Positions 35,722-60,924 of a stretch of 64,000 nt of DNA are shown piece after piece (the first letter of the stretch is position 1; the number at the start of each line of letters is the position of its first letter). Location of the stretch: assembly GCA_921293015.1 (NCBI GenBank), contig OV121096.1:9489000-9552999 (forward strand), read 5' to 3'. A program made the position numbers and the translations under genes. The notes beneath the pieces are model-generated. The model made no database searches. It worked only from the letters and a program-made list of their open reading frames with translations, and was not told where the DNA came from. This DNA comes from Phorcus lineatus (lineage: Eukaryota; Mollusca; Gastropoda; Trochida; Trochidae).

Positions 35722-38700
35722 ATGAATATAACATCAGCAGGTGGGGTGTTATCCTTACTAGATGAACCTGAACCACAATTGAAGGTATTTGCTTTGGAAA
35801 AACTGAACAAAATTGTCGATGTCTTCTGGGCTGAAATATCTGAATCGATTGACAAAATTGAAGTTTTGTATGAAGATGCCGGTTTTAAGAACAAGGAAAT
35901 GGCAGCTCTCGTCGCATCAAAGGTTTACTACCATCTGGGAGCGTTTGAAGAGTCTCTTACCTATGCCCTTGGAGCTGGGGATCTGTTTAATGTTAATGAA
36001 ACATCTGAGTTTGTTGAAACAACTATTGCCAAGTGTATTGACCACTACACCCGCCAGTGTGTAGAAAATGCTGATTGTACAGAGGAAGAAAAGAAGCCAA
36101 TTGACAAAAGACTGGAAGCAGTTGTCAACAGAATGTTCCAGAGATGTTTTGATGACAAACAGTTTAAACAGGCTCTGGGAATTTCACTTGAAACTAGGAG
36201 AATTGACATTTTTGAAGCTTCAATTTTGAAATCTGATGACATCCCAGCAATGCTGTCGTATGCATTCAAAGTGTGCATGGCACTAATCCAAAACAGGCAG
36301 TTCCGGAACACGATCCTCAAAGTCCTTACCAAACTGTACATGAACTTGGAGAGACCTGATTACATCAATGTCTGTCAGTGCTACATCTTCTTGGATGATC
36401 CCCAGTCAGTTGCCGATATTCTGGAAAAACTCATCAAAGGAGAAGAAGACAGTGTTTTGATGTCCTACCAGATTGCATTTGACCTGTATGAGAGCGCTAC
36501 CCAGCAGTTTCTACAACAGATTCAGGCAGCACTTAGAGCTGCTTCCCCATCTGCTATAGTCACTCCTCAAGCCAAAAAACCTGAAGAGGCAGCCAAAGAG
36601 ACTAAGGAAGAGGCCAAGGAAGGAGAGACTATGGAAACTGATGATGCCAAGGCTACACCACCTGTTCCTGATACAAGCAATCTGAGTGAGAGTGACAAGC
36701 AGTTGGTTGAACGACTGACACGGATACACACCATCCTGGGAGGGGAGACAACCATCTATCTACATCTACAGTTCCTCATCAAGAACAACAAGGCAGATCT
36801 CCTTATCCTCAAAAATACCAAGGATGCCGTAAGGAACTCGGTATGTCACTCTGCGACAGTCATAGCTAACTCCTACATGCACTGCGGAACAACCTCAGAC
36901 CAGTTTCTAAGAGATAACCTCGACTGGCTTTCTCGAGCAACCAACTGGGCAAAGTTTACAGCAACAGCAAGTTTAGGTACCATTCATAAAGGGCATGAAA
37001 AAGAAGCTTTGCAACTGATGTCCTCATACCTACCAAAAGACACAAGTCCAGGATCTTCATACTCAGAAGGTGGGGGCCTCTTTGCTTTGGGGCTCATACA
37101 TGCAAATCATGGTGGAGAAATAACAGATTATCTTCTCAACCAGCTAAAAGAAGCATCTACTGATATGGTTCGTCATGGAGGTTGTCTGGGTGTGGGACTA
37201 GCTGCCATGGGAACTGCCAGACAGGATATCTATGAGCAGCTCAAGTTCAACTTGTATCAAGATGATGCCATCACAGGAGAAGCAGCAGGTTTGGCTATGG
37301 GCCTTGTCATGCTGGGAACAAACTCTGCAACAGCCATAGACGACATGGTCAATTATGCTCAAGAAACTCAGCATGAAAAAATCCTACGTGGTCTAGCTTT
37401 GGGAATTTCATTGACAATGTATGGCAGACTGGAGGAAGCTGACGCCCTCATAGACATTTTGATGCGAGACAAAGACCCAATTCTACGCTGGTCTGGCATG
37501 TACACACTAGCCATGGCTTACTGTGGATCTGGAAACAACCAAGCCATAAGAAGACTGCTTCATGTTGCTGTCAGTGATGTTAATGACGACGTCAGAAGAG
37601 TTGCTGTCACATCCCTGGGATTCCTGCTCTTCAGAACACCAGAACAATGTCCAAGTGTCGTCTCACTGTTGTCCGAGAGTTATAACCCTCATGTCCGCTT
37701 TGGAGCTGCCATGGCGCTTGGAATTGCTTGTGCTGGAACTGGCCTCAAAGATGCGATCACTCTGCTGGAACCCATGGTACAGGACCCAGTCAACTATGTC
37801 CGTCAGGGGGCACTCATAGCTTCTGCACTCATCCTCGTACAGCAGAATGAGGTCACCTGTCCAAAGATGACGCATTTCCGACAGCTGTATGCGAAGGTGA
37901 TCAGTGACAAGCATGAGGATGTCATGGCCAAATTCGGATCCATCCTAGCACAGGGCATTATTGATGCAGGCGGCCGTAATGCAACAATCTCACTGCAGTC
38001 TCGTACAGGACACACCAACATGGAGGCGGTGGTTGGGCTCTTGGTATTCTGTCAGTACTGGTTCTGGTACCCCCTCACTCACTTCCTGTCTCTCTCCTTC
38101 ACCCCCAACTGTGTTGTTGGCCTCAACTCTGATCTCAAGATGCCGAAAATTGAGTTCAAGTCGAACTCTAAGCCATCTACATTTGCCTACCCACCGCCAC
38201 TGGAAGAGAAAAGCACAAAGACAAAGGAGAAGGTGGAGACTGCAGTGCTCAGCATCACCGCTAAACAGAAGAAGAAAGATGCTGAGAAGAACAAGGAGGA
38301 GAAGATGGATGTGGATGAAGAAAAGAAGGATGAAGGAAAGGAGAAAGATGTGGAGATGAAGGAGGAGAAACCAGATGCTAAGAAAAAGGAAGAGAAGAAG
38401 AAGGAAATCAGCCTGAAAGATGAAGCTGAAAAGAAAGAAATCAGTCTGAAAGAGGAAGACAAGAAAGAAGAAAAGAAAGAACCTGAACCTAACTTCGAAA
38501 TGATGGCCAACCCTGCCCGGGTTATGAAAGCACAACTGAAGGTTCTGTCTATGGGTGAAGAAACACGTTACTCTCCGGTTAAAGATCTGACGATCGGAGG
38601 AATCATCATGATGAAGAATAGCAAACCCGGTGAAGAAGAAGACATCGTGGAAACTGTGTCTGCTGGTGGTCCAAAGTTGGAGGAGGAGGAAGAACCGGAA

Positions 38701-38736
38701 CCGCCAGAACCCTTCGAGTGGACCGACGACTGCTAG
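35722..38736 (+). CDS. PSMD1: 26S proteasome non-ATPase regulatory subunit 1 (Rpn2)
   Basis: One uninterrupted frame of 1004 codons from ATG at 35722 ([15 protein letters not shown], the family start; another in-frame ATG lies two codons earlier at 35716; upstream codons lack a Met). PSMD1/Rpn2 is a large scaffold of the 19S base that binds the ubiquitin receptor Rpn13 and contacts the ATPase ring. Homology runs end to end: [20 protein letters not shown], the inserted acidic linker near 285-330, [20 protein letters not shown], then the toroid of PC repeats ([10 protein letters not shown]-, [10 protein letters not shown]-, [12 protein letters not shown]-, [14 protein letters not shown]-, [10 protein letters not shown]-type), [16 protein letters not shown] and [15 protein letters not shown]/acidic segment (about 835-930) and the PEPPEPF tail, which in other species binds Rpn13, close the protein. 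It is slightly longer than human (953 aa), mostly from the KEKE region. The absence of any intron is odd beside multi-exon neighbours. Poly(A) signal AATAAA at 39228-39233. Confidence 0.98.
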
Positions 38737-40568: not shown

Positions 40569-40743
40569 TGTTTCAAATCCTGCCAGGAGCTCGGCAACTT
40601 TGTCTGCGGTAGGTTTGGTTTGGGTGCAATGCTACACTGAATATCAGCGCAGTACCACCCATGGTTCGCTAGTTCCAGCCTATGCTTGCAGGTTTCACCA
40701 CAATACATAGCCACAATTGTATTGAATCACCTCCTCCCACCTC
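40569..40743 (+). repeat. 5'-truncated tRNA-derived SINE with TSDs
   Basis: 175 bp that starts within the B-box area (TTCAAATCCTGCCAG) and follows the SINE body (GGCAACTTTGTCTGCGGTAG, ATGCTACACTGAATATCAGC, CCATGGTTCGCTAGTTCCAG), ending in a CACCTCC-CACCTC tail. Perfect 10-bp duplications ACAACAAAGA flank it (40559-40568 and 40744-40753), showing LINE-assisted insertion with 5' truncation. Confidence 0.85.
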
Positions 40744-41777
40744 ACAACAAAGAATGAAAACAAAAATTGTAACAAAACGTATTTGAACATAAAACAGAAA
40801 ATAGTTAAAGAATGTAAACGCTACTCAACTAAGAACAAGGATCCCTTTACAATATTAGGATGAAAGTTACACAAGTACGATGAACCCCTAACAATTTCAG
40901 GCACAAATAACAGCAAAAATTCCCTACACCATTTGCCAATATTTTACTCAACCATATTTATTGGAAGTGGATGAAAATATTTTAAATGAACAAACAAAGC
41001 AACTTTTATAGGAAATAAATACCATTTTTGACCCCAAAGGTGAGTCTTGCATAGCTCACATGGTGGAGAAGAGGTTTTAGTTTAAAATTGTGTACATTAG
41101 TTAGGTAATTGAAAAGGTTTGGTGCTATGAGGCTCTTATTTGGTATATATCATCTATGGGGGGCACCAAACTTTCAAAAAGGTTTTCACTACAAATGGTC
41201 AAAGGTCAAGGTCACAGCAAGGTCAAGATTTATGCATGGTTTTGTAAAAATGCTTGATTCTAATTAACACTTTTAATCATTACATGATTGTTTTAGTCTA
41301 TGAAAAGTGTTATATTATGTGACCTTGAATGTTAAAAACCCTTAAATCAAATTTTGTCACAAAAACTGGTATTTAGAACTCATATTAACCAGGTATTGAT
41401 TATACCCCATGGAAATTATTTTGACTTGTTCCTGTCAAAGGTCAAGGGTGTCAGAAAATCTGAAGTCACTAAAAGAAATTTCAAAATTGTTTGAAATCGC
41501 CCCAGTGTAGTCTTGACATCCAAATGCTACTAGGTGTAATCGCAATTTCTTGACTCTAATGCACATTATCATTTGTGGTAAATTCAGAAAAATGCCCAGA
41601 TCATTAAGTCTGTGAAGAAGGCTGAACAGAAGACGGAAACCTCAGTTTCAGGGCTGCTCTGCTTTGAAGTGTTTCCAACTAACACTCAAATATTTGTTTG
41701 TAAAGAATCTGTCTTACGAATTAGGTCTTTAACATCAAAAACACCTAGGCTGATGAGCTACAGCACCCATAGCTCTA

Positions 41778-41833
41778 GTGAGTTATTGTTTAACGCGCGC
41801 CGCTTGGGCAATATTTCAGCCATTCGCGGCGAT
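41778..41833 (-). mobile_element. Hairpin mini-retroposon, copy 1 (56 bp)
   Basis: The complete insert reads on minus ATCGCCGCGAATGGCTG, AAATATTGCCCAAGCGGCG, CGCGTTAAACAATAACTCAC. CGCCGC pairs with GCGGCG, and an inner GGC-GCC stem sits within the loop. Perfect 12-bp duplications CCCATAGCTCTA flank it at 41766-41777 and 41834-41845. Confidence 0.9.
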
Positions 41834-44086
41834 CCCATAGCTCTATTTATTGCTAAGTCTGAGCCATGAATAATGATGAGCATTGCTGTGAAGCCATATA
41901 AGTTCTACCAACAAGTAAGTGTTTGCTAAATGTTAGTATCATACAAAATTCAAACCAGAACAAACTGATTTAAAGCAAACAACTACCGCTGACATCAGGC
42001 GGAACTTATTTCAAAAGAAAAACAAAATCAGTAGTTACAATGATAAAATTTATTTGTCATTTAGAATTTGTATTGACCAAAAAACACACTAACAAAGATA
42101 AAATTTTGGTATCATAAATCTCTCTTATGTTTAAAATCGTGTTTCTTTGGTCAAACAAAAGAGATCACATAGACAATAAAACAAATCTCATTCATGATAC
42201 CACATACACTGAAAATACAAATATCACTCATACACAGTTAAACCTTTCATTCAATATGCCAATATAGAAAAGTTCCGTTAGCATTTTGGCACCTGCTACT
42301 ATTTTTATAAAAGTATTCAATGTGTAATACTAAACCCCCACCCCATCCCCAAGATAAGAAACAAATTTCTGATAATCTAAATAGCTTTTTCATATTTTCA
42401 ACCCAATTACACTCATACCATGAATAAATATACATGAACTATTTCATTTGAGATTCAACTTAAATTCAAACTGAAAACTAAAGTACAAATACTGACATTA
42501 TATAAATACTGTTCCCTTAGCTTGAATGGAATTCAGACAAATATTGCACACAAATATTTTTTTTCTACGATTTTTCAAGTCACAGAAGATATGCTGGGCC
42601 CAGATCGTCTAAGCTCTCTTAGCTCTAATCCACCTGTGAGGTAAGCTAGCCTTAGGGGGACTTAAGACAATTGGGAACCACATTTTCACTGAAAAACTTC
42701 CAGTAAAACATATTTCTGTTGTCTATAATTTCATTAACAAGTAGATATTTAAAATATAGTCTTTAAGATATTTACAAATTCAACATAAAATAGATTCACA
42801 TCAAATGTCCAATTTACATTATTTTATGGCCATATTATCAGAAAGAATTTTTTTGATAATTGACTTTTATCCCATTTATTACTTTTTTTCGCATATGACA
42901 TATGTAAAACTAAAAATATCTAAATGAAATACTTGCCTAAGTTAATAAATCTTGTGCTCCATAAAATTAAGGTGCTAAAATCCAACATAAAACATAAAAT
43001 TTACACAGCTGACTATTCTATAGAATGTTATTTAAAACCCTATTAGAAAGACAGATCTTGAAATACTTTATATGCAATTTGTTACTAAAATGATTAAATA
43101 TTTTGTCACTAAAATATAGCTTATGTTATCACACAATTGTCAAATAAATGCGCTCACAAACTGTCATGTTCATTCAAACCAGCCTAAACATACACAGACA
43201 TTCATTTGGCTTTTTAAAAGACGAGCACGGATATGTTGATATTTGAGCTTTAATTAATCACAGGACAGACCTCTTACAAACTTGAAATTTACATAGACTT
43301 GCATGTGAGTTTATTGAATTATAAATTAACAATATTTAAATAATTTTCATGAAATTAATTGTTTCAATCATAGCTAAACTGTGGAGATAGATTAAACATT
43401 GTCTCAGCTAGAAAATTAAAAACTCCTATTCATTTTTCTCATGACTTACTAATGAAATTATATAATGAAATCATTTTCAAAGCGATTTGCCATTCGCTAT
43501 CATTTTAATTGAGTTCACATTAGTGAATATATGTATTGAATTATATCTTTGTCTTTTCAGTGATTAACACTGGAATTATAACAGTTTGGGGTTGTAGCTC
43601 AGATGATTTTTTTAAACTGGAACTTATGTCCTACTCAGAAAATAAAGTTTTCTTGAAGTATTTATACTATGCAAAATAAACATGCAAATCTATGTGAATA
43701 ATGTCGCGCAGAAAAAAAATAACAATAATTTTGTTGAGGGTCTGTTTATACTCTTGAGGTCACATGAGGCACAAAATTGCATTGATATGCATATTTTTTT
43801 CCACACAAAGTTATAGAGGCAGGCAGACATTTTTAGAACTAATTCAGGGCCCATAATACAAACAATTTCTAATCATGTAACTATATCTCTGTGTCTGCAT
43901 ATTTAATCTTAGTGTAAGCATATAGATGAACCAGAAACAATGTTTACAACTTAAGACTTATTTTAAATTAAAATAAGTTTAAATATGAAAAACTTTTTAC
44001 TCTGAATATTTGACTTTGTTGGCAACTATGAAACCATGTATGAGAGACTTGATAATGTTTTAACAATTCTTAGACATATTAAATAT

Positions 44087-44150
44087 GGTGATTGAGTGAG
44101 TGAGTTGTTGTTTAACGCCGCTTGGGAAATATTACAGCCATTGGCGGCGT
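44087..44150 (-). mobile_element. Hairpin mini-retroposon, copy 2 (64 bp)
   Basis: On minus it starts ACGCCGCCAATGGCTGTAAT, continues ATTTCCCAAGCGGCG and ends TTAAACAACAACTCACTCAC with an ACTC-type tail. Perfect 12-bp duplications CATATTAAATAT flank it at 44075-44086 and 44151-44162. It has the same 5' start as copies 1 and 4. Confidence 0.92.
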
Positions 44151-44654
44151 CATATTAAATATACAAAATTCTTTTAAACTAATAACAAAATGATATATCC
44201 AAAAATTTCTTAATTGTCCCTACATCCTTCTGTCTGATCTTTTATAAGTAGTCATAAGACATTCGAACTTGCGAGTGAAGGGTTCGCTGACATGACATTC
44301 AATTCAAACTCTGCCCTTGCTCAATAAATCAAGCCTTGTAAAATATGTAGATTGATCGCAGTTGAATACTTTTCGGCACATCAGTGAATCCAAGATGGCG
44401 GATGAGTCTTCCATTGATAATATCTTGTCTATCAAATCTTTTATAATCGACCAATAAAATTGAGGTATACTCTGCACAATTTAAAATACAACCATTCACG
44501 CTGCCAAAATTGAGAGAAATAAATTAATTGCCATTAAAACACAGCATTTCAAAAGAATATATACCCTGAAACAAAATAGATAAGTCCATTTCAGTCATAT
44601 TCTCCCCACAATGGTTGAGTCTAAAATTAGGAGAAGGGGTGTCAGTCAGGTGTG

Positions 44655-47600
44655 TCATAATGTCGATACTGTTGATTCCGTTGAGCAAAGTTTAGCGAGG
44701 TCGGCTCCAGCCCTCTGCAGAAGCTCCTTGGCTTTCTCACCTGAAATTGAACAAATTGCATCATGAGTTTCTCCTTGCATGGTCATTTAATCAACGTCAT
44801 GACAACTGTACTTAAACTTTATTATTAAAGGGTTGAAATAACCCTTGTCAAAGCCATTTAGATCATAAGCTCGGTCATCACAATACTCTACACTAAATCA
44901 CCCCCTGGGACTTTTCTTTGGAAAATCTCTGCTGAAATAATCCATCCTTGATTTGCACATGCTCATCAATTTGATCATCGATGAACATGAGAGCATCTCG
45001 ATATTCTCTATTTTGGTGTTTTGTGATCGTAGCGATTCAGGTTTTTCAAATTCGAGTCTCTGTGCTTATGCTGAATCATAAGTTTCAAACATCGAAGAAT
45101 ATGACCACTACTCCCCTGTCATATGTCTTCATTGGGTTTTTTTCTGTGATATTTGTACTTTATATACATACACAAATTTGGATCAATCAACTAATAAGAT
45201 ACTTTTGAGCAAAATAACCTCTATGTTGCTTTTTTTTTTATTCATAATGTTTTACAGTAAGACAAGTGTCATAGTCCTCTTCAACTGTTCTATGACACCA
45301 CAGAGGAAACAGTCAGAAAAAATGGTTGCTAGGAATAGGGAAAATGTAATTGCACATGATATATGAAACCACTTATGTTGCTAATAGACATGACTACTCA
45401 CTTGCAAGTTGCAGATCTTCTGAGGGTTTCTTGATGACTGCTATTTTGCGCTCTATTCTCCTCACCGACCTCTTGGTAGGCGTGGATGAGCTGATAGGTT
45501 CTATCGGCAGATCTGATTGGCTGTTCTCAAGGTCACATGTCTGGGGTGGACACCGGTTATTGGCGAGGGCCAGGGCATGTCGAGCTCGTTCCAAGATGTC
45601 CTCCTCAGCCATTCCTGAATCTCCCTGACCACAGTCCATTTCCCGCCCCCCGCCCTCACTGTCAAAGTGTAAACATGCCTTGACCACAGCTTTCGAAGTG
45701 GCCAGGCTTTCCTCCAAGTCATTCTTATCAATACTGTTCTCAGTCTTGAAGGGGAGCGAGTTGAAGTGGCTGGTCAGGTTGGTGTGTAAACCTGTGTCGT
45801 GATTGGTCAACTGGAGACTTCCTGTTTGATACCCCGTGTCCTGGTTGCTGGAACTTGGCTGATGGTTGAAGTCACTCGTGGTGTCCATGTCGTCAACTGA
45901 CAAGTCTCTGTCTGCACTGAATGTGTACGTTCTGTTGTCGGGTTTGAACTGGAAGCAGTCTAGGCTGGATGTTTCAATCTCCATTGCGTTGGATTCCCTG
46001 AAAGCCATGACAGGAACAGGAGCAGCCGGCGCAACACCCCCAGGGGAGACAATTCTGTCTTTGATGTCTTCCGCTTGTGGAGTGGATGAATCATTTGACT
46101 GATGTTCTGAGCTTTCTTCTGAAAAAAAGAAAAATTTTTATTGAAAAGTTACTTATTGATGATTGTCGGATATTGAAAATTTGCAATCGAGGACGATCTC
46201 CTCGGTCAATATTGTTTTCCACAAGTCTATGAAGAGGTAGTGACCTAATTCACCAGTCCACAATTGTTTTTTTACATGTTTGAATAATCACAAAATGAAA
46301 AAAAAAACTACAGCCATAAACAAGAATTTTGATTGCTTATCCAACACATTGAGTGATTGACATCACAAAAACAATAGCATGACGTCATGTTACAACAGTT
46401 TGACAACAACATGTCTATTTTTAGTACCTCAAGTGAATATCACTTTTGGTCAGGCTAGGAGTGAAGTCAATATGCTTTCCTCCAACAATCAGACGGCCAG
46501 AAAAAATTAACTCACATATTAACACACTTTGTAGACACTAAAGATGCTTACTAAACCTGAAATTCTAAGAAGTATTGTGAGAATACCATATGCTTTTAAG
46601 ACCTGATGCTTAAGGACAATATGACCTTTATAAGCAAACAACTTTGATATTTTGTGTCTCGTAAATTGATAATTTTAAAGAGAATGACCACTCAAACTTA
46701 AGGATAATTCCTCCCAATTCCTACCTTGAAGATAGGAGGCCCCCATGTCTGGATGTTCAACTGGAGGTTCACACTGAGGTATTGGCGACATGTCCGGCAT
46801 GGGCAGGGGAGATAACTTGTGATGAGCATCGCTGCTTCTGCTGATGTGTTCACAGCTGATAGGCGACATGTCGGGCATGGGAAGGGGAGACAAGCGCTGT
46901 TTGATGCTGTCAGTGTTGAAGGTGAAGCTCTCGTCACCGCCAGGAATACCACAGCCAGAGGAGCGGTAAACAGCTGCAGCTGGGGATGTAATAATATTTA
47001 TTACCTATGAGAGCAGTTATTTTGGACTTTATATTTTTCCTTTTTCAGTTTTTCATTGGGACAACATATGATAGACTATGCATTCCAAACAAGCCAATGA
47101 AAGGTTATCCACCTTTGCTTGGATGCAGATTTTGATTATTCTCTTTGATTTCACAACATGGGGTTTGAACTAGTATTACTTCAGTGCACATGACATAGTT
47201 TACTGTCAAATTTCCAGGGGGTTTTTTTCACTCTGAAAAAGAGACAAAGTATACTCTTACCACTGCTAATTAAGTTTGTTGTGAAATTTTGAAGGATAAA
47301 AATTCCAATCATTAGGGAGACTTAAAGTGTAATCAGTTATTGCTTAATTACCTCTATTGGTTCTCTTCTTGTTTATGGGCGAGAGTTCTGGTGAAGCAAG
47401 GTACTCAGACTCTGACGTTCGCCTAAAGAACGGAACACTGTCCGACGGGCCTTTTATGGGGCTTGAGGAAAAATGACCCTGAAATAAAATGTCATGACCT
47501 TCTGATTATTTCGTTTCTAAAATTAAAGAGCACTTTCAGATGATTTAATAGCACTTGGTGGTATTTTCATTTTCTCTCTAATAGTATTTTCTCTCTAATA

Positions 47601-50600
47601 GAATTATAGTTGCATAACTGCCTGTAAGAATACTGAAGATAAGGTGTCTTACGTCAATTGCTAAGCCCAGATATTCTGATAAAGCTTATTAGCATAAGAT
47701 TTAATGGCACAACTGGTCAGTAAAATATTCAACAGCTAAAGAATTAATGGAGTTAATGACAAATCAATTTCTTCTTGTGAAAAGTTCATTCAGACCCAGC
47801 AAAGATTTTAAATTCTTAGTGTTAAGAAAGTCATAAATAACATATACCACATATCATCAGTGGTCAATTACTATCTTAGTAATTTGAAAATCTAGGTCCA
47901 GGAAACTATGGCCAAACAGAAAGACTTTGGTGTTTGACTACAAGAGTTATTAGACTACCAGAGCTTGGACTAACCGTTGAGGAGGTTCTGTAGGCCTGCT
48001 TGTCCCACTCGGGGGTGGTTTGGGGGAGGGGGGACACGGGGGGAGATGTCAGCTCCTCAAGTCTTCCTGCCCCTCTGTAAAGAGAATACAATCATAATTT
48101 TACTGGTCGTCGGTCAGCAAGTGGACAATGAAACAGGACATTGCCCAATGCATAAATAATAATCTGCTTTGATTATAGTTTCTTTAGGGTTGGCGTATCA
48201 TGGGCAGATTTACTTAAGTAGGGCAGCATATCATGCACAAAATACAAACTGAACTGGTATGATCAAAATCTATAGTATTCCGAGACCCCCAAAGACTGAG
48301 CTTGCTATGTTTTCATTTGCGTATTGATTCACATGCTCTCCTGAAGTCAAATTACAGCTTTTCAAAGACCATTTTTAAGTGAATGTAGCCATGATATAGT
48401 TTGAAGTAGTCTTTAAAAGTTGTCTAATTTAAATGGACCATGTTCCAAAATATTGCCTCAAAATATAACTCATTTGGAGGCCCATATTCTAAAACCAGTT
48501 TTGCACAGATGAAAACTAGTCATGAATGGACCAATCATATCGCGATAAAATAAAAAGATAGCAATGAACTTTTAGAACTTACATAGGTTCACAGGAATAA
48601 TTTGCCCCTAGCATGTATCACAAAAAGATTTTGCTGGAAATTATTATCTAATTTAAAATTCATTTTAATCAGAATGAGTAAAGGTGGACATACTTGACAG
48701 GACTGAGTGAGGTGCTTGTGTCTCCCTGGAAGAAGAGTTTGCGGCGGAGCGACGATGTGCTCAGTGCTTCCTGGTTTCCTTCCTCGGGGATGTCCGGCAA
48801 CATGTGCTCTCCTGTGTGGGAGATTTGTTAGTTAGTCATGGGCAAGACACAGTACCAAACGAACAGAAGGCAGACAATCTCTTGAATCAAGTTGGGGATC
48901 TAGTCTTATTTTTGAAGTATCTTATTTATCATTTAGTCATGGGAGTTGATTTACAATAAAAAGTGTATCAATGTAACAGAATGCTGACAATCTCTTGACA
49001 TGGGTTAGGGATTTTGCCAACTAGTTTGTTATTATATTCTCTTGTTTTATCAATAGTAAGTGATTGACTTGACCTACAGTACAGTGTTCAACTGAAGTAG
49101 AATGTTCACATACTTTAATTAGGTCAGGGATTCTGTCCTTTAAGTTTAAAGTATCTTGTTTTGTTAGTTAGTAATGGAAGGTTATTTACAGAACAAAAGT
49201 CAGGGTATCTATCGTGTTACAACGTATGTTCTTAAGATGAGGTGACATGGGATCTACCGCCGCTTTCAAGAGTATTTTACTTATTGCGGTCGCTAGTATT
49301 ATTGCCGGGAGAAAGCCTGCAACACCATTGTGGCTATACATTCAGTGAAACCTGCGAGCATTGGCTGGAACTAGCGAACTATGGGTGGTACTGCACTGAA
49401 ATTCAGTGAAGCATTGCACCCAAACCTTACTGCGTGCAGAACAGTTCTCTGATGCAGACAAAGTTGCCGAGCCGCTGGCGGGATTCAAACCACGAACCAC
49501 GAGCCGACCACGCTAACCACTGTGCTATTCCGCCCCCTGTTCTTTCTTGAGTGTATTAGTTAGTCGAGGGGATCATGTACAGCACAGCTATTCACTACTT
49601 GCAAGCATATGCCTTTTATGACAATATACTTAGATTCATCAGCTGAAATTCGATGTTTTATAGGACCATTTCTAATTCAAAACAGAGCTTATTCATTGAG
49701 TTTTTACAACTTTAAGCTTTCTTTTGAAAGCTTGCGAATTCTTATGAAATGCTATTTTGCCAGTACAAAAAATATTTGAAACTCACCTAGGACATTCTGC
49801 ACATCGAAGTCGACCGGCAGTGAAAGGGTTGTCTGGCAGGCAGCTAAAATCAATTTATCGTATTCAATCTTGATAATTCCCTATAAATCTGAGATGAACA
49901 TATTATGCTACTAAACATAATTCATTACTCACTCTAGATTAATATTTATCAAATAGCTGGACACTTATAAGTAGAAACTTCTTGTGGTCAGGTGGCAAAA
50001 TTAACAAGAATTAAGACATATAAGTTTTGGGCAATAAAGCAGTCACTGGATGAGTGAGTCATTGTTTAGTGCAGCCTTGATGATAAAGCAGTCACTGGCT
50101 AAAATAATGTAATTTTACTGAATGTCATTTTGGCAACGAAACAATATAGATGAATCATTGTCATAAACGTTACATTTAGCAGTTGAAAGAATTAGCTCAT
50201 AACCATTAAGAGACGGCAAGTTTGATTGTATTCATTCATTGTAAATTTAGTGAAAATTTACCATCTTGACTCCTGCGTGTTTTTGTTAATTCTTTCTGAA
50301 TGGATCCATGAAGATCCTCTGGAAATATTTGAGTGGGACGGATAACACCTGGAAGAAATTGAAGAAGAGAATGAGATAATATCACTTGATAATGTTAGCA
50401 AAAACCGGCTTTTTAATACTCTACACGATAGAAACAACATTTAAGGGTAAGTATTAAACTCAGTCTTTAATGACTTTTTAATGATTTATAAAAAGAAATC
50501 AAAGGTAAAATTTGCAAGTCATTGACCTTGTACCTACAGATTTCAAAAGAATTATTTATCTCAGGTTAAACTAACTCTGCATTTTCACTCGGTGAAAAAA

Positions 50601-53098
50601 CACGTTAGGGACCATTCTATGGTTAGCAAATTTATATTCAAAAGTGTGTCACTTCAAAACAAATTCTTGAATAATTTCTAGCAGTTATTCTGCTCAATAA
50701 AAATAAATTTTAAATCATAAAATTTTCAGCATTGACTTCATGTAACAATAAATCTTTTCGGACCACTGTATAAGGACAAAAACTGCTTGAAGGGGAGATA
50801 AACGATGCCACAAAGAATATGTTTGTTTATACATGTATCACATGCAACCTGTGTTGATTTTCCTCTATGTTCACCAGGACCCATATTTTCAAAGCTCTCT
50901 TAGTGCTAAGATTGTCTTAAACCAATGTTAATGTATGATACATACGACTATCTTAGCACTAAGAGAGTTTCTAAAATCTAGGCCCAGCTGTGTATTGATA
51001 CAAAGCAAATTCCTTTCAGGGTAATAAAGTATTACCATCATTATCATCATTAATAATACCTGACTGTGAGTCGGGTGTACAAGGAGGGATGTATTTTCTC
51101 TCGGGAGCATTCCACGGTGACGGTGCTATCAACTGACTGGCAAAAAAGTGTTTTATTGCCACTTGGGCCCTCTCCTCTGCCTCACAGTCTAATCTGGAAA
51201 ATATCAGTCACAAAGATTTCTAATCTGAGTGATCAAGATTTAATTGAAAAATTAAAAAATGTTTGATACATGGACAAAATTTCTCTTGCTGTCTCAATCA
51301 CTGCCTGATTTAAGCTTTGCTGTATTTTGTTGCCAAAATTTCCAGAAGTAATAACCTTTAATTCATGAGGGCAATGCACTTAAATCACAAATTTTGGTGC
51401 AATTTTGACGGGTTGAAGTAGCTAGTGATGGAGACTTGCGAGATTGATAACTTGCACAGGAAGTTGGCGAGGGCTATGTTAATTTGAATGTGAATCACTA
51501 AATCTTATAATTTTAACATGATTTCTTAGGGCAAAGCTTTTCATGCGTTTCTACGAGCCAAGATAACTGTGAATACAATATGTTAGCATTGATTTACCAT
51601 CTTAGGCTTGTACTAACAAGGGCTATGCTTGATTGGTAACCTGGTGAACTATCTGGCATACGCCACCCGAAATGACGAAAGCGGCAAATCACTTTATTAA
51701 CAACTGGCATACACCTCAGAAGCACGCCAGATTCACCAGTTTAAAATGACAGGTGAACATGGTGTATAATGGCGGACAAATACTTTCGTTGCGACTATTC
51801 CACAACTATTTTATAGTCATCATTATTTTTTTAAATAACAACTCAAAACGATTTAATTGGCAATATGTATAATTATTAAAAAACATCCATAACTTGATAG
51901 TGATGTTTAAAGTCATATTTCAAAATGTTTGAAAAATATTTATATCATATAGATGAAACGTATTTTGAAACTAGTCTGAGATATGATGACTGCTTCATTT
52001 GTGTACGCCAACATACTTGATTCAACTTGAACCTGTTACTGACCCAACATACGCCGGTTCCATGTCTTGGCTATACGCCGCTTAAACGAATCAAGCATAG
52101 CCAAAGCTTCTGAAATTTAGGCTCAGACCTATTTAGAAGAAAGATTGCACAGCCAGAAACATACCCATGTTCTAGCTGGTGTGGCATTTCATCTATGTTG
52201 GCTGGATTCAGTGCTGCTATATGTTCTATGGACCACTGAAATGTTCTTTGCTGTAAGAGGTAGTAAATGTTGGTCAAAAGCAAATTATTTGGCTAAATAC
52301 ATGAAAAATTATCACTTGCAAAAATCCTGAAAATAAACTATCAATTCCAATATTTTTTTGATTGCAACTTATTTTGGAAAGTTTTGATAATACATACCGG
52401 TAATAAAGTTGTCAGGCAAAATAAAGAAAATTCTTCTTTCCAATTTTTATCTTCATGATCATTATATACATCTTAAATTTAAGTTCAATCTCTACCTTTA
52501 AAACTTAAAGACTCTTTTTTGACTCAACTGTACCTGTAAAGATTTATAATACTAAGAATAATATTGCACATACCCCATCTTCACCTGCTGGCGTGGACAT
52601 GGCTGTAAAAAGACCAGGACTAAACCCTGGAAAGTGAATTCGATCGTCTATCATATCAAACGGATTGCACATGATTTGGCTTGATGGAGTCACATGACTT
52701 GCTATTCCTGGATGTAATTGGGCGCTGCTAGGAGTCTTAGAATGCACACTGCTTGGAGTTGAGATTCTGTCCCTGTTTGGAGTTTTGAAAACAACCGGGC
52801 TCCCAGCACCAGACCTGACAGACATAGGGGATCCTGATTTCTGATACGGACTTGCCAACACATGGCGCAGATAAGTGTCTGATCGATACCCACATGTTCC
52901 AAATCTCACGTGACATGGACTCTTGTGAGATGTGCTGGGCGTGTGATGCTCATGATGTCCTTTCATAACCGACACTGGACATGGTTTTAGATCTCGGTGT
53001 TTATCTGGTGTTGAATGGTTTTCTGTATGTGCAAGTCCAACTGGTACAGGGAGTGGAGGCTTCACTTCAATGTCTTTGTCAGAAAGCTTAATTTCCAT
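44655..53098 (-). CDS. BORA: Protein aurora borealis (Aurora A/Plk1 activator)
   Basis: Eleven coding exons on minus: 52574-53098, 52165-52250, 51060-51193, 50262-50348, 49787-49843, 48694-48811, 47975-48074, 47352-47478, 46725-46979, 45402-46118 and 44655-44740. GT-AG throughout; total 2292 nt, 763 aa plus stop (human 559 aa). Bora is a disordered cofactor: after phosphorylation by cyclin A/CDK1 it lets Aurora A switch on Plk1 at mitotic entry. Conserved core: NPFDMIDD (about 145), FSPGLF (Ser160), STPAG (Thr169), FQWSIEHIAALNPANID, EERAQVAIKHFF, PSPW (Ser229), ACQTTLSLPVDFDVQNVLG and STSSLRRKLFFQGD. Ser160, Thr169 and Ser229 match the three human sites Ser41, Thr52 and Ser112. Two DTGxxT motifs (590-595 and 604-609) sit where vertebrates have the DSGxxT beta-TrCP degron. 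Unusual: about 120 extra N-terminal residues rich in SP/TP, and a twofold repeat LSPLPMPDMSPI (about 441 and 467). An acceptor at 53115 suggests an upstream 5' UTR exon. Confidence 0.95.
49235..49530 (-). repeat. tRNA-derived SINE in BORA intron 5
   Basis: Near full-length minus-strand copy. On plus from the left: the tail/hairpin domain (GAGGTGACATGGGATCTACC, GCCGCTTTCAAGAGTATTTT), the body (GGGAGAAAGCCTGCAACACC, GAAACCTGCGAGCATTGGCT), then the head region with GGATTCAAACC and CGCTAACCACTGTGCTATTC. A B-box base is changed. Target duplications unclear (a TGTTCTT-like match only). Confidence 0.85.
50050..50082 (-). mobile_element. Hairpin mini-retroposon, copy 3 (33 bp, 5'-truncated)
   Basis: On minus the insert reads CATCAAGGCTGCACTAAACA then ATGACTCACTCAT: just the last arm of the hairpin and the tail of the other copies, somewhat diverged. 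Perfect 16-bp duplications ATAAAGCAGTCACTGG flank it at 50034-50049 and 50083-50098. Lies in BORA intron 4. Confidence 0.85.
50877..50985. mobile_element. Inverted-repeat MITE (uninterrupted copy)
   Basis: 109-bp element in BORA intron 3. The left arm TTTTCAAAGCTCTCTTAGTG-CTAAGAT and right arm ATCTTAGCACTAAGAGAG-TTTCTAAAA are inverted repeats of about 36 bp around a short centre that contains AATGTTAATG. The sister copy at 28486-29057 is broken at this TTAA. Confidence 0.85.
51621..52102. mobile_element. MITE with GGCTATGCTTGATT ends
   Basis: 482-bp segment in BORA intron 2 bounded by GGCTATGCTTGATT (51621-51634) and its exact inverse AATCAAGCATAGCC (52089-52102). Subterminal CATACGCC/TACGCC motifs occur several times near both ends, as expected of transposase-binding repeats. 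No coding frame. The superfamily was not recognised. Confidence 0.7.
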
Positions 53099-54201
53099 TA
53101 TATTACTGCAATGTCTGAAATAAAAGTGTCAATGAATTAAAATTAATTTGGAGTTCATGCAAAACATTAAAACCAAAACCGATCACAGTAATAATGTCCC
53201 TATCACAAGGCTAAAAAATTCACATGCCTAGTCTAGATACTGTCATACTCATTGAAATCTAAACCTTGCACTTCACTGCATTTCTCTACGAGTATTTCAT
53301 TGGGGTAATGTAGGTTACATTTACACATCCTCCAGTAAATTACAGGAAGCAATCAGCATGAGTTCATTGTTTGAATTTATGGAGTGATATTCAGATCAGA
53401 AATGCAGTTTAGGTTTACCTACTAGTAAATCGACCAATGACTTACGGTTTCAACAATTCTCTCCCATAAAAAGGAAAACTCAACTCACAGCTTCCGTTAA
53501 TTTCAGGCATTTAAACTCGTTACCCCCACATTTACATATCACAAGAAATGCTTTGAAATAAGCGAGTTAGAATGTTCATTACCAACACAAATGGATTCCA
53601 TGAATGAAAACATTAAAATGCACATGATATGAATGTTTTCAAAACTATGGACGTTATTCGAAGTTAAATGTTTCAAAACTACATTTAAGGGTGTATACAA
53701 ATGATGTACCATACATTCAAATATCCTGATAACATTCCACTCGATATGTCCTGACATGCACGAAAAATCCCGACAAATTTTGAACTGCCGCTTATTTTGC
53801 AGCCAATGAAAGTGTACTTCCGGGTTCGATGAGCTTGGTGTCCCAGAATAAAAATTTATTACACATTTTAGCAAAACTTAAATAGATAGCAAAATATTGT
53901 ATTCTCTCTCACAAATACCCTCAAATAATACGATATGAATCGTTTTACAGACAAAATTAATTTTATAGTGTCATATTCGATGATTTATTTCTTTTCAGGC
54001 AAAAATATTGGAAAGGACATCACGTTATTTACTGCTGAAAACTGTTGAAGTTAAAAACTTATCAAAGAGAAAATTCATGTATATTTTACGAAATTATTAT
54101 GGCTATATATATATGAAATTCAAATACTAATTCAATTGTAAATTTGTTGTCAAAATATTTTCCCAAAAAGATTTGCTGCGAATCATGACTGATTTAAAAA
54201 T
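53099..54201. promoter_or_regulatory. Shared upstream region of BORA and MZT1
   Basis: 1103 bp between divergent start codons. It holds a CCAAT box (53803-53807), an ETS-type site ACTTCCGG (53816-53823) and a TTTGAA hexamer (53779-53784) about 20 bp from the CCAAT on the BORA side. CCAAT plus CHR (TTTGAA) is the usual layout of G2/M promoters bound by NF-Y and DREAM/MuvB, which would fit both genes, but a 6-mer is weak evidence alone. The stretch contains no convincing coding frame. Confidence 0.5.
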
Positions 54202-56537
54202 ATGGCGGACACAAAACAGAGAGCTCCTTCTGCTAGGGAGACTATGGAAAGTATGTAAAATGAGTTCCGATATTTACTCTAATATTTAAAAAATATTTAA
54301 ATGCAGTTATAGTTTGAAACAAAATTTTGATTATTTGATTGTAAAATTGATGGATGCTGATTTAATTATATATTTTAAAAGCAGTTGAAATTAAGTCAAA
54401 GAATGAACAACACAAACACAAATTTAAAAGACTAGGCCCTAAAGTATACAAATTAACGTATAGAGGGAGAATAGGGAAAGTCAATTTCCCTCAAAATGAT
54501 CGTAACCATCAATACGTTATTCCTTAGAGCTATTTGCCTTGAATAAAAAGTGAGGTGAGTTGGTGTTTAACGCCGCTTTCAAGATTATTTCACTTATATC
54601 GCGGCTGCTAGAATTATTGCAGGGAGAAAGCCTGCAACACCATTGTGGCTATGCATTGCGGTGAAACCTGCGAGCATCGGCTGGAACTAGCGAACCATGG
54701 GTGGTACTGCGCTGAATTTCAGTGTAGCATTGCACCCAAACCTGACTGCGTGTAGAACAGTTCTCTACTGCAGACAAAGTTGCCAAGCCCCTGGCGGGAT
54801 TCGAACCACGGACCTCCTGATCCGAAGCCGAACGCGCTAACCACTGCGCTATCCCGCCCCTGAATAAAAAGTCCGCAAGCTTCTATTTGTTTGTTGATGG
54901 AATACCTTTTTTGAAAAAAATATGTTTATAAGGTTCATCAAGACTTTAGATCAAATCCAATACAATTGCATTCACTCTTACCAGACAACATCATTGACTT
55001 TGAATTTCTTGTCATTCATCATTGAAGTGTTTTTGAGCTAGAATGTTGCAAAACTTTTAAAAAATGTAATTCCTCTTTCAAGATTGGATGTTGATAGAAA
55101 AGTCCCTTGCTTTTATTTTTGCATTATCCCTATAAAAAATGGGTTTGGTTATTCTTTAGTAAGATTGAGCATAAATTATATTTGTTAAATATTGTATTGC
55201 AGCGCTTATGGAGATCTCTAAGCTTCTGAACACTGGTCTCGATGGAGAGACCCTGGCGACCTGCGTGAGGTTGTGTGAAGGCGGAGTCAACCCTGAGGCA
55301 CTGGCGCTAGTTATTCAGGAGTTGCGGAGGGAATCAGCTGCTCTTAAGGTTGGATATGAAAATCATAAATATTATGTGTAATATATGATTAAGTAGTTCT
55401 CACTCTTTGTAAGGAAAATGGCAGCTTTTTAAGAAAAAAACAAACAAAATAGATAGATAGATAAAATGTTTTTGTTACTAATATATCTCACAGATTCATT
55501 GTCATTCAATACTTGCAATCCTAGTTTGTAACTTAGAATGTTTGAAAGATTTTCTCAAATATTAGAAACAAGAATTTAAAGTGAATATCATGTTGAAGAT
55601 ATGTTGAAGATTGAAAGACGATTTAAATTTACAATTCTATCAGAATGTTTGACTTGTCAATTATGTACAGTATTTGATGTAAAAACCTCCTCTCCCTCTA
55701 CATACCCCTCTACCCATATTTGTTACTCACAAAATGATAATAATAATAAAACTACTTTATTACCCCGAAAGGAATTCAGTTTGTATAATTAGAGCTTGAA
55801 CGTACAGGAAAGGCAATACAGGAACATACATGTGATACACGAACAAACACATTCTATTAATTGAAAGATCATTTAACAGACAAATGCAGAAGGGAATGAA
55901 AGTAATTTTACGTGGTAATAAATATCTTCTGCCTGAAGGAAGCTTAACAGATTCACCGTAAAAGTAATGATCTGGATCATTATGCCATTTGTCAGGGAGA
56001 TGCATTTCAAGTTATAAGTCATACATATAAGTCACTGTTTTTTTATTCGATATGTTGGCAAACTAAACTCTATAACATTAAGCAATATTGAACCTATACA
56101 GTGGCAGAATTTTATTCTTTATATAATCTTTACAATTTTACGGAAAGACATTTTAATAAGCACCCCTCTTTTCAATTTTCTAAGCGCCCAGGGTGCTTAA
56201 TATGTTGAATATTTTATCACTGAGAGTTAGTGTTTCTTGATTATATGGATAATATAATCTTCTAGTGCCCCCCCTGGGAATGCTTATACTAAAAAATCTC
56301 ACTTACCAACAGTGTGCCATTTGATGTGTGACCGATCAAAAAAATGGTAGTTGCTGCATCATTAAGCATTTTACAAATTTACAACTTCAATTGAATTAAT
56401 TAAAAATTATGAAAAGTCATTCAGTTTACACAAGTACTGTATTCCATTTGAAGTAACATTTTTTTATTTAGTTATTAATGAAGTTATTCTGTTTTATCTT
56501 TCAGGCTTCAGAGAGCACAAGTGAGTCATATTCTTGA
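54202..56537 (+). CDS. MZT1: Mitotic-spindle organizing protein 1
   Basis: Three exons: 54202-54250, 55203-55348 and 56505-56537, phases closing to 228 nt, 75 aa plus stop (human 82 aa). MZT1/GIP1 is a small helical subunit of the gamma-tubulin ring complex that binds the N-terminal regions of GCP proteins and is needed for microtubule nucleation and spindle poles. The family core is plain: RETMETLMEISKLLNTGLDG, ETLATCVRLCEGGVNPEALA, LVIQELRRESAALKASES. The N-terminus MADTKQRAPSA is short and unconserved, as usual. The last exon adds only ten residues; a GTGAGT inside it could act as an alternative donor. Divergent from BORA. A full-length SINE lies in intron 1. Poly(A) signal AATAAA at 56682-56687. 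Confidence 0.96.
54552..54860 (-). repeat. Full-length tRNA-derived SINE with TSDs
   Basis: Best copy in the window. On minus it begins GGGCGGGATAGCGCAGTGG-TTAGCGCG (A box), then GGTTCGAATCC (B box), a body with CAGTAGAGAACTG and TGGTTCGCTAGTTCC, and a 3' domain GCCGCGATATAAGTGAAATA-ATCTTGAAAGCGGCG, TTAAACACCAACTCACCTC. Perfect 12-bp duplications TGAATAAAAAGT flank it (54540-54551 and 54861-54872). Both pol III boxes are intact, so this may be a young copy. Confidence 0.93.
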
Positions 56538-56681
56538 CCTGAAGTGAATGTTGCTGATTTGGTTCTAACAACTAGATTGTTTCATTGTTCTATCAACAAG
56601 TGGACCAGTTTGCCATACCGGAGATGTGAACAGTCAGTCTTGACCAAATTTCTTCTTTGGGATGCCATCAATCTGTATGGA

Positions 56682-56687
56682 AATAAA
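56682..56687 (+). terminator. MZT1 poly(A) signal
   Basis: AATAAA about 145 bp past the MZT1 stop, a normal 3' UTR length for such a small gene. Confidence 0.55.
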
Positions 56688-58552
56688 GTACTGTGTCTGT
56701 TGAATTGACATCTTTAACTATGAACTTCTGTAATGCTTATGACCTTTGACAAGAATGGACTTCATAATATTTTCTATAATACCGGTTTGCATTGTTGTCT
56801 TTCGTGATTTGTATCATAACATTTAAGAAAGAAAAAAATATCTTGCTATGTATTTCATCAAAACAAGTCCATCTGTGATAACAATATGTGTCATTAAATA
56901 ATGTATCAGTTCAGGAAATCTACATGTCATCATGTCTTTACTCAAAAGATTCATTTCACCAACTTATATATATGAGAAAGATAATGAAAATGCATATGTA
57001 GTTATTTTCCTACAACTTTGAACTCTTAAACATCCTCATTTGCTACAATTTGAACAATGGACTCTTGATAAATGGACAGGAATGGACAAATGAGGTTGAA
57101 ATTAGAAAGATCTTTAAAAGGTTAGAACTTAATTATGTGTACAGTTCTGTTATATACTATTTTATGATAATCAGGGGTTAAAAAATATAGGCAAGTGCCA
57201 GATTCCTGACTTACAGACTTTACCTTAGATTCATATAAAAAGGCACTGCAAAGTCAATCCCTTGCCTCTTTTTCTAAACATAATTAGCTACTATGAAATA
57301 CTGTTAGTCCTTGATTCCCTGATTTTATGTTTTTACCCCTTCAGTAACAGTTACTGGATTTCTGAAGAAAAGTTTCCTTTTATTATCAAGTCTCGGACAC
57401 GAATTAGAAGAAGTAATATACTAACGTTGTTGATTTATATTTGAAAGTTTGATGTACATAGAATAAAGAACATTTGAAAGTTGTTTAAGTTTTTGTGTTA
57501 TATTAAGTAACCTCCCTGGCATAGCACAATTTGAGCTGCAGGTTTCCACAATTTCTGGATTCATTGCAGATTATCGGTAATCTCTAGTTAAGTAGGTTTG
57601 CACAATATTTTCGGTATATTGGTTTCTTATGGTATAAACTGTGCTATACAATAACAGCATATGATTTCATTTCTACAATATATCGCTTAAAATTATTTAA
57701 ATAGAAAAAAACATACATTTAAAATACGTTGTGACATGTTCTTGATGTGTAAGAACTTATTTTGGACTGTATTAGAAGTTAGACTAAATTTGAAATTGTA
57801 TTTATCCAATTTATCATTTGAATTCTTAGCTCATCAGGCCATATAGAATTCGTGATTCTGTGACTTAACAGGGCCAAAGGCGCCGCATCTTTAAGTCATA
57901 GTCTCGTTTTTGTAAGGCAACTAAACTGAACTAATTATTCTTCACGAACAAAATCTGATCAAATATTTGCAATTTTTTTTGGCAATTTTGGATGAAGCAG
58001 CTTATTGGTGTATGCCATTTCAGACCGATGAGGTACCAAATCAAGTGCAATCCCATCGGGAGTTGGAAACACTGGAAATCTAGTAATTGTAGCGCCGATA
58101 CTTATGACAGACACATTCTTCACTAAGTTTACCACCTTTTTGTTATTTCTGTATTTGAAAAAGCGTAAGCTATTAGCTATTTTCATTGGATATTCAGTTG
58201 GGAATTTTTATGTGTTCTTCGTCACGGCCTTAGGGAAATGACGTGGTTAGGACTTACGCTCGCCAAAGACATCATATTAGGGTAGCGTAGGGTAGTTTGA
58301 ACTTCATGATTGAGGGCTAGAATGCCTGCAGAGTTTGTTGCAAACGTCAGGGAAAAGATTTCTGTAAGTGGTGAACTATTTGTCCGGCATGCATTACAAT
58401 TTGCCTTGCAAAAATGATACTATAACTTTAAGACCTATTTTCATCTTTGTCTGAAGAAGCAAGAGGCCTTGAAAGCTGAAACCTTGTGTACAGACTCCTT
58501 AGCTGATGTTGATTCTTATTTACAGATTAGAGTAGATTCAATATTTTGCAAC

Positions 58553-58609
58553 GCCGCTAATGGCTGTAATATTGCCCAAGCGGCGTTAAACAATAACTCA
58601 CTCACTCAC
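58553..58609 (+). mobile_element. Hairpin mini-retroposon, copy 4 (57 bp)
   Basis: Reads on plus GCCGCTAATGGCTGTAATAT, TGCCCAAGCGGCG, TTAAACAATAACTCACTCAC. Stem GCCGCT pairs with AGCGGC. Perfect 15-bp duplications TCAATATTTTGCAAC flank it at 58538-58552 and 58610-58624. Opposite orientation to copies 1-3. Confidence 0.92.
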
Positions 58610-58759
58610 TCAATATTTTGCAACATCATTGCGATACAACAGTAAATTATTGCAATATATCACATCACAAACTTTGGTCCAATATCAAGCCCTTATATCC
58701 TGTTGCATGCACTACCCCACTGAAAATAGCCTTGCCAGTGGAAAGCTTACTTTGACATT

Positions 58760-59389: not shown

Positions 59390-60924
59390 AACTAGTGTCC
59401 AAAAGAAAGTACCCACCCATGAATTTAACACCAATTTTTTTTTCGATGTAAATTTTGTCCACAAACTTTTTTGATTTTATTCCATACGTGAAAACCCATC
59501 TTTTTTCGGAACCGCATGACAAAACAATTAAAAATAATCGCCCCAACGCTGCAAAACACCAAAAAAGATGTTTCCTGCTGTAGCACAAAATGCACGTGCA
59601 TATCGACAGTATAAATCAGCTCTCGCTACACGGTATGACCACAATAGAAAGAAAACCACAAAAAGTATGCCACGTTTAACTCAGGTGGAAAGAGAGAGAG
59701 CTGTCGGTATGGCGCAACAAGGCGCCAACAACACAGTCATTGCAAGAACCTTCGGCTGCACAAGGAAAACGATCACCAGACTGATGCAACGACTCAGGCA
59801 AACAGGCAATACATCAGACAGGCCAAGAAGTGGTCGTCCACCCGTGACAACACCCGCTGAAGACCGTCACATCCGCACAATACATCTGCGCAATCGTTTT
59901 GTCACGGCGACGTCAACGGCTTCGACAGCACTCGGACGCGTCATCAGTCGGCAGACGGTGTACCGACGACTACGAATCCATGGCATCCGAGCACGTCGTC
60001 CTTACCGCGGCGTAGAGCTGACTCTCCAAAACCAGCGTCGTAGACTGGCATGGGCAAGACAAGTCCGACGTTGGCAGCTCCGTAATTGGCGACGTGTGCT
60101 GTTTTCAGATGAAAGCAGGTTTTGTCTCTTCAGAAATGACGGCAGAGCGCGTGTGTATCGACGCGTTGGTGAACGCACGGCCCAGAATTGCGTCCAGGAA
60201 GTCAGGCCATTTGGAGGCGGGTCCGTTATGATATGGGGAGGGATCTGCGGAAATCTGACGACGAGGCTTGTGATTATTCATGGCAATTTGAATGCTCAGA
60301 GGTACAGAGACGAGGTGTTGAGACCAGTTGTGCTTCCTTTCATTCAGCAACAGCCGCAGGGAGTTGTTTTTCAACATGACAACGCAAGACCACACACGGC
60401 AAGACTGACAAACGACTTCCTAACCAACGCCAATATCGACGTTTTGCCATGGCCAGCATATTCTCCCGACATGAATCCCATCGAGCACCTATGGGACCAC
60501 CTGGATCGACAAATCAGGAGACGACCCGCACCCCCAGTCACGATCCAGCAACTGGAACAAGCTCTGATTGAAGAATGGCAGCAAATCCCACCAGAGGTCA
60601 TACGCCGCCTTACTTCTTCCATGCGTCGACGTGTGTTTGCCTGTATTAACGCCCATGGTCGCCATACCCGTTATTGAATAAAGATTTCTTGTCATTTTGC
60701 AAAAGAATTGCCTTGTTGGTTTGTGCTGAAATTAAGTTTTTGATACCACCTGTCTTTTATTGACAGTCATACGGTAATTTTGACTTCGTACCAAATGAAA
60801 TTTGCTGCATATGCTGAGGAATTGAATATTCTATTCAGAACAAAAAGATTTGCATATACATATGCATTGGTTGTTATTTTATGTTAAAAAAACTACACTG
60901 GGTACTTTCTTTTGGACATTAGTT
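59390..60924 (+). mobile_element. Complete Tc1/mariner-type transposon
   Basis: 1535-bp element with 26-bp inverted ends: left AACTAGTGTCCAAAAGAAAG-TACCCA (59390-59415), right its inverse with a single mismatch (60899-60924). A TA dinucleotide on both sides (59388-59389 and 60925-60926) is the standard Tc1 target duplication. It contains one intact transposase gene. GC content over the gene is clearly higher than the flanking AT-rich DNA. Intact frame plus nearly perfect ends suggest recent, possibly still active transposition. Confidence 0.95.
59667..60677 (+). CDS. Tc1-like DD34E transposase
   Basis: 336 codons from ATG at 59667 (MPRLTQVERERAVGMAQQG). An in-frame ATG at 59568 would add 33 residues with no family match, so the later start is preferred. 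The enzyme binds the inverted ends and cuts and pastes the element into TA. N-terminal paired-type helix-turn-helix regions (about 1-115) include a GRPR-like linker RPRSGRPP. The catalytic domain has Asp148 in FSDESRF, Asp238 in QHDNARPHTA and Glu273 in SPDMNPIEHLWDHL, with 34 residues between the last two (DD34E). No stop or frameshift; length is normal for the family (about 340 aa). An AATAAA overlaps the stop (60677-60682). Lies in spacer DNA between MZT1 and the LRRC74-like gene. Confidence 0.96.
   Translation: MPRLTQVERERAVGMAQQGANNTVIARTFGCTRKTITRLMQRLRQTGNTSDRPRSGRPPVTTPAEDRHIRTIHLRNRFVTATSTASTALGRVISRQTVYRRLRIHGIRARRPYRGVELTLQNQRRRLAWARQVRRWQLRNWRRVLFSDESRFCLFRNDGRARVYRRVGERTAQNCVQEVRPFGGGSVMIWGGICGNLTTRLVIIHGNLNAQRYRDEVLRPVVLPFIQQQPQGVVFQHDNARPHTARLTNDFLTNANIDVLPWPAYSPDMNPIEHLWDHLDRQIRRRPAPPVTIQQLEQALIEEWQQIPPEVIRRLTSSMRRRVFACINAHGRHTRY

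Follow-up and report, generated by a model that had tools for sequence, protein, structure and literature searches.

Short inserts with a hairpin-bounded 5′ end in the genome of Phorcus lineatus and their probable origin from a LINE

A 64,000-nucleotide stretch of the genome of the gastropod Phorcus lineatus (assembly GCA_921293015.1, contig OV121096.1, positions 9,489,000 to 9,552,999 of the forward strand; hereafter the window, with positions counted from its first letter) holds several very short inserts that consist of a hairpin followed by a tail, and that we call stubs. Probably these are 5′-truncated copies of a long interspersed nuclear element (LINE), made by target-primed reverse transcription, in which the 5′ end has been set by the hairpin at the 3′ terminus of the LINE RNA. 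Derivation from a LINE and a hairpin-set 5′ end, taken by themselves, are very probable; that this end is set during synthesis of the complementary DNA (cDNA), with a fold-back of the new strand and a gripped template counted together, we consider about an even call. As far as the sequence itself tells, the LINE origin, the target duplications, the sharp 5′ end and, in most cases, LINE-templated end bases are all evident.

Stubs in the window and the place where copies begin

Four of the inserts had been picked out in an earlier note, made from the sequence alone, and their positions have been recovered exactly from the flanking duplications, which are perfect and of the 12 to 16 bp that the note had given. 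Stub 1 (41778-41833, minus strand) lies between 12-bp copies of CCCATAGCTCTA (41766-41777 and 41834-41845), stub 2 (44087-44150, minus strand) between 12-bp copies of CATATTAAATAT (44075-44086 and 44151-44162), the short stub 3 (50050-50082, minus strand) between 16-bp copies of ATAAAGCAGTCACTGG (50034-50049 and 50083-50098), and stub 4 (58553-58609, plus strand) between 15-bp copies of TCAATATTTTGCAAC (58538-58552 and 58610-58624). As had been noticed before, three of them share their start, which we place within 0-2 nucleotides (nt) of the stem base, and stub 3 begins within the hairpin. Stub 1 carries a G variant of the hairpin, GCCGCGAATGG, with an additional CGCG ahead of GTTAAAC. A BLAST search of the stubs against the window has added an older fifth stub (14079-14132, plus strand, 76% identity over 54 nt), around which no clear duplication has been found, the longest repeat between its flanks being 7 nt. 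The window copies with a complete stem fold better than shuffled sequences, two of the three by a wide margin (z of -3.65 for the 58553 copy and -3.01 for the 44087 copy) and the third, at 41778, weakly (z of -1.46). In the source genome, a 958-Mb assembly of 74 contigs, a 60-nt query taken from the 58553 copy has given 41 matches, 10 of them further full-length matches at 100%, and 30 have been retrieved as loci.

The place at which copies begin has been determined with a pattern from the tail, GTTAAACAAYAACTCACTCAC; both the loop and the 5′ arm of the hairpin are upstream of it, so that copies are not selected on their 5′ ends. It has 1864 exact matches in the genome and none when reversed, and the tally covers 100 listed copies of these 1864, all on one contig (C1) and all with exact tails. 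Automatic classification has sorted them into 85 stubs, 7 LINE-joined copies and 8 others. After hand checks, in which two copies (L072, L133) moved from LINE-joined to stub and three (L034, L075, L125) from stub to a start inside the hairpin, 84 of the 100, about five in six, start at the stem base; a further 8 start inside the hairpin, 5 are joined to the LINE (L053, L057, L058, L060, L131), 2 have internal deletions (L038, L054) and 1 is without a hairpin (L052). Stub ends have been set by the target duplications, as loose alignment ran too far into the AT-rich flanks. Thus measured, 58 stubs from both samples are 52-76 nt long, with a median of 58 nt. Of the 85 automatically called stubs, 59 have a duplication of 11-14 bp, and at the stem base a repeat of at least 8 nt has been found in 44 of the first 60 tail-anchored copies versus 2.1% of 2943 mismatched flank pairs. 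The duplication ends 2 nt before CGCCGC in 27 copies, 1 nt before it in 18 and directly at it in 10, with a distance of 3-5 nt in 8 more and an overlap of 1-3 nt with the stem in 6 (69 in total, from -3 to +5); three larger offsets belong to L042, L051 and L142, in which neighbouring repeats blur the position. In the copies examined, the 5′ ends do cluster strongly at the hairpin. The earlier note had named randomly spread 5′ ends, or a lack of duplications in most copies, as what would refute its reading, and neither has been found, the ends being sharply clustered and 72 of the 85 having an exact duplication no shorter than 8 nt. As a separate observation, the stubs L042, L132 and L141/L142 lie directly downstream of the tail of an older copy, as though tails were favoured targets; for L141/L142 a tandem duplication may be the reason instead.

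The parent LINE and its relation to the stubs

Upstream of the hairpin, 13 of the 30 retrieved loci run into a common sequence and 15 end at the stem, 13 of the latter with a duplication detected by script (L002 and L011 without); the remaining two, L029 and L030, match the common sequence unbroken for only ~38 nt. In eight loci, including L010, this sequence is at least 1.5 kb long. One copy, read over 5.3 kb, contains in broken frames an ORF1-like piece, an endonuclease, a reverse transcriptase and an RNase H region. The APE-type endonuclease is recognized in pieces of one copy (Pfam Exo_endo_phos, 1.4e-6; Exo_endo_phos_2, 1.8e-21), the reverse transcriptase scores 1.1e-20 with RVT_1, and RNase H follows it (RNase_H, 3.4e-10, locus L024); cysteines resembling zinc knuckles (CCHC) are visible by reading in the ORF1-like piece, which has given no Pfam hit. 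Taking endonuclease, reverse transcriptase and RNase H together, the parent of the stubs is therefore a LINE, perhaps of the I group, as guessed from the domains. The stub 3′ end is identical to that of the LINE; a LINE with the same 3′ end, for which the earlier note had proposed to look, has thus been found, and the same hairpin closes it. In the LINE context an 8-bp terminal stem is predicted, and the 23 nt upstream of it are predicted to be unpaired.

The abruptness of the transition from stub to LINE is reflected in pattern counts, each allowing at most 3 mismatches. The hairpin has 3772 matches in the genome, the hairpin with 12 nt of LINE 379, a segment ~100 nt upstream 281 and one ~1350 nt upstream 114. 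By these counts about nine tenths of the copies would disappear at a single point and a quarter of the remainder within the following hundred bases, and the 5 LINE-joined copies in 100 obtained by direct reading agree in size with this attrition. Random 5′ truncation of the ordinary kind, in a LINE of low processivity, would account for the 8 copies in 100 that start within the hairpin and for the thinning-out of LINE-joined copies along the body; it is nevertheless very improbable, as 84 of 100 ends are gathered within a few bases of one place and the following 100 nt bring a loss of only about a quarter. Among 19 LINE-joined copies checked, eight extend through all of the 1.5 kb read and the other eleven end earlier. 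Five of these eleven (L008, L009, L016, L020, L058) end 279-326 nt before GTTAAAC, and a second predicted stem, CAGTGTCCC/GGGACACTG (1224-1273 in the oriented L010 sequence), lies near the five ends. As a second end point this putative stem is a lead only, since the exact ends are not all at its base.

The stubs look like by-products of LINE insertion instead of a separate mobile unit, judging from variants that they share with LINE subfamilies. Loop variant G occurs in 12 of 100 hairpins listed (of 3772) and in 6 of 100 LINE-joined copies listed (of 216; p = 0.22, from a test fed with 13, the recount by eye giving 12), and loop variant GCTC in 12 of 100 hairpins listed and 8 of 100 LINE-joined copies listed (of 129 matches, under a pattern that fixes the other loop sites); the variants have been counted by eye. 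Directly before the stem, 38 of 53 T-variant stubs have A, versus 0 of 5 G-variant stubs (p = 0.003), and T precedes the stem in the six G-variant LINE-joined copies listed. Where two extra bases stand before the stem they are CA in 14 of 27 cases, and where there is one it is A in 12 of 18, both being the bases of the LINE. Thus stub variants and the pre-stem base both track LINE subfamilies. Changes on both sides of the stem have been counted 4 times in stubs, with 3.2 expected by chance, so that stubs, once inserted, appear to decay freely. For a time variant G had seemed confined to stubs, since a pattern with CTCA fixed ahead of the stem gave it in 1 of the 96 exact LINE-joined rows listed; the free spacer, which gave the 6 in 100, has removed this candidate.

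That the 3′ domain is a mobile unit in its own right had been one of two proposals in the earlier note, and both counted loop variants speak against it, as they occur LINE-joined too at rates that are not significantly different. In such a scenario stub source genes would breed stubs and borrow only the enzyme of the LINE, which would suit the excess of stubs over LINE-joined copies, ten or more to one, and the nominally doubled frequency of variant G in hairpins. It would leave the tracking of LINE subfamilies by the pre-stem base and the chance level of paired stem changes unexplained; moreover, by reading, the stubs have no RNA-gene head and only hairpin and tail stand between the duplications, with nothing resembling a promoter (read by eye, a promoter scan not having been run). 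We regard an independent unit as highly improbable.

A second candidate source lies in the window itself. The short interspersed nuclear element (SINE) at 54552-54860 (minus strand, duplication TGAATAAAAAGT) ends in a hairpin and tail that are related to those of the stubs but different: the stem and part of the tail are in common, and the loop, GATATAAGTGAAATAATCTTGAA, and the tail repeat, CACCTCACC, differ, so that this SINE is not the source of the stubs. The earlier note had taken its hairpin and tail for identical, which does not hold. Stubs as truncated SINE copies have been ruled out on the same differences and on the first 20 exact copies read among the 10819 genome matches of the SINE hairpin, all of which are joined to the SINE body, with not one stub among them. 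The tRNA-like head of the SINE has been assigned by reading; ARAGORN has reported no tRNA anywhere in the window, which is no proof that the stubs are without such a head, as it missed that of the SINE too. The predicted stem of the SINE has 5 bp versus 8 bp in the LINE, and stem length, loop or a short RNA, presumably made by RNA polymerase III, may each be the cause of the missing SINE stubs. Since a different LINE may serve the SINE, the contrast is suggestive only. A further SINE copy (40569-40743) is without the hairpin, its body running directly into AATCACCTCCTCCCACCTC, and has a 10-bp duplication, ACAACAAAGA, at 40559 and 40744.

How the 5′ end may be set

According to the explanation that we favour, the hairpin would, by analogy with other LINEs, be a recognition signal for the LINE protein; priming would take place on the ACTC-repeat tail, tail and hairpin would then be copied, and cDNA synthesis would mostly end at the upstream edge of the hairpin. 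Most likely, RNase H would remove the RNA, the cDNA hairpin would fold back and the primer end would be lifted off the template; or the template would remain gripped at the hairpin. In roughly one tenth of events at most, synthesis would continue, often far. Retroviral strong-stop cDNA is an analogue of such a fold-back. Given that the 23 nt upstream of the fully copied hairpin are predicted to be unpaired, no predicted RNA structure blocks the way. Uniform stubs from copying that halts at the hairpin had been the other proposal of the earlier note, and this part fits the data; the SINE as the template does not, the LINE RNA having to take its place. That the recognition hairpin is in this manner a stop signal for the copying of the LINE itself, with the uniform stub of ~58 nt as the main genomic product, is a tentative proposal to which we give somewhat less than even chances. 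If true, the edges of the stubs would document, across the genome, a single mechanistic step of target-primed reverse transcription.

Several observations weigh against an end set during cDNA synthesis on LINE RNA, or against the data from which it has been drawn. Structures normally hinder the enzyme on entry and not on exit, and here the entire hairpin has been copied. Self-primed palindromic copies, to be expected occasionally from a fold-back, have not been clearly seen among the 100 copies (L034 is unclear). Given a shared enzyme and no effect of stem strength, SINE stubs should occur, and 0 of 20 have been found. One further G-variant LINE copy (C37:43897583) has A and not T before the stem, and the extra stretches at 23 of 53 junctions match none of five listed LINE endings, which suits run-off at an RNA 5′ end. 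The patterns behind the counts along the LINE differ in sensitivity, a LINE subfamily with AAAATCTCA being missed by the pattern of hairpin and 12 nt, and the tally of 100 copies comes from one contig and from exact tails only and contains the tandem pair L141/L142.

The main rival of a stop in cDNA synthesis is a trimmed RNA template, in which 5′ degradation shortens the LINE RNA, the hairpin and tail held by the LINE protein survive, and this remnant is copied to its end; the stub would then show which part of its RNA the LINE protein had covered. Such trimming would explain the 23 non-LINE extras, the sharpness of the end, which mostly lies 0-2 nt beyond the stem, and the absence of stubs from a SINE RNA that is presumed to be a polymerase III product. 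It requires an abundant pool of trimmed RNA, and 5′ exonucleases usually halt several bases ahead of a roadblock, not at 0-2. We consider it a serious possibility, at around one chance in three. A third mechanism, in which a structure-specific nuclease would shorten a longer cDNA during integration by cleaving its extruded hairpin at the base, would likewise place the end at the stem base, and a four-way branched intermediate is reported for LINE integration (PMC6895275); taking into account that no such products of the SINE hairpin occur in 20 copies, it appears unlikely.

Relation to known elements and other features of the window

The cause of LINE truncation is a long-standing question, usually answered by host interference or poor processivity. 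The stubs resemble known 5′-truncated LINE copies in their intact 3′ end, the missing 5′ part and exact target duplications; the 5′ ends of the known copies are variable, whereas stubs are truncated at almost one and the same point, where the 3′ hairpin has its upstream edge. Truncation itself is known, and so sharp a hairpin-set end has not been found in the open papers searched; in this open-licence literature we have found no description of LINE copies limited to the terminal hairpin. Pattern scans of viral contig and genome contig collections have given 0 matches.

Short repeats at the 3′ end are known for ZfL2-1, ZfL2-2 and UnaL2, and to our knowledge ZfL2-1 and ZfL2-2 are without RNase H. 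The protein of the zebrafish pair ZfL2-1/ZfL2-2 binds the 3′ stem-loop of its LINE, and the parent LINE described here resembles these stringent-type elements in a 3′ stem-loop and in a SINE of the same genome with a related tail (PMC4176376). Short repeats after the stem-loop are a further resemblance. The zebrafish pair is assigned there to the L2 clade (PMC4176376), whereas the parent LINE here has RNase H, its hairpin-length stubs are dominant and binding by its protein is presumed. Tail and hairpin also resemble those of mollusc tRNA-derived SINEs in which the 3′ domain is conserved: the SINE at 54552 likewise ends in a GCCGC hairpin and a CTCAC tail of this type, whereas the stubs have no tRNA-like head, have another loop and tail, and are LINE-derived. 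A paper on bivalve transposons stands beside this comparison (PMC10294476).

It appears that thousands of natural insertions stop at a single structural point, and with a LINE and a SINE of the same genome as contrast, the models of fold-back, gripped template and trimmed RNA can be put to the test. Repeat annotation may miss or misread stubs, which are mostly shorter than 70 bp and outnumber LINE-joined copies by at least 10:1.

Apart from the stubs, the window contains a tandem array (16002-17619) whose 54-bp unit is organized in a higher-order repeat of 316 bp, the period of 316 matching at 97% over 16056-17537. An 810-codon open frame (19667-22099; RVT_1, 1.2e-32, no RNase H hit) apparently belongs to a LINE that is not the stubs' parent, and a 379-codon open frame at 59538-60677, with DDE_3 and a Tc3-type helix-turn-helix, encodes a Tc1/mariner-like transposase. 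The proteasome subunit RPN2 (PSMD1) is encoded at 35542-38736 with its N- and C-terminal domains present in a single open frame of 1064 codons; the gene is therefore intronless over this stretch, which is unusual for an animal gene of such length.

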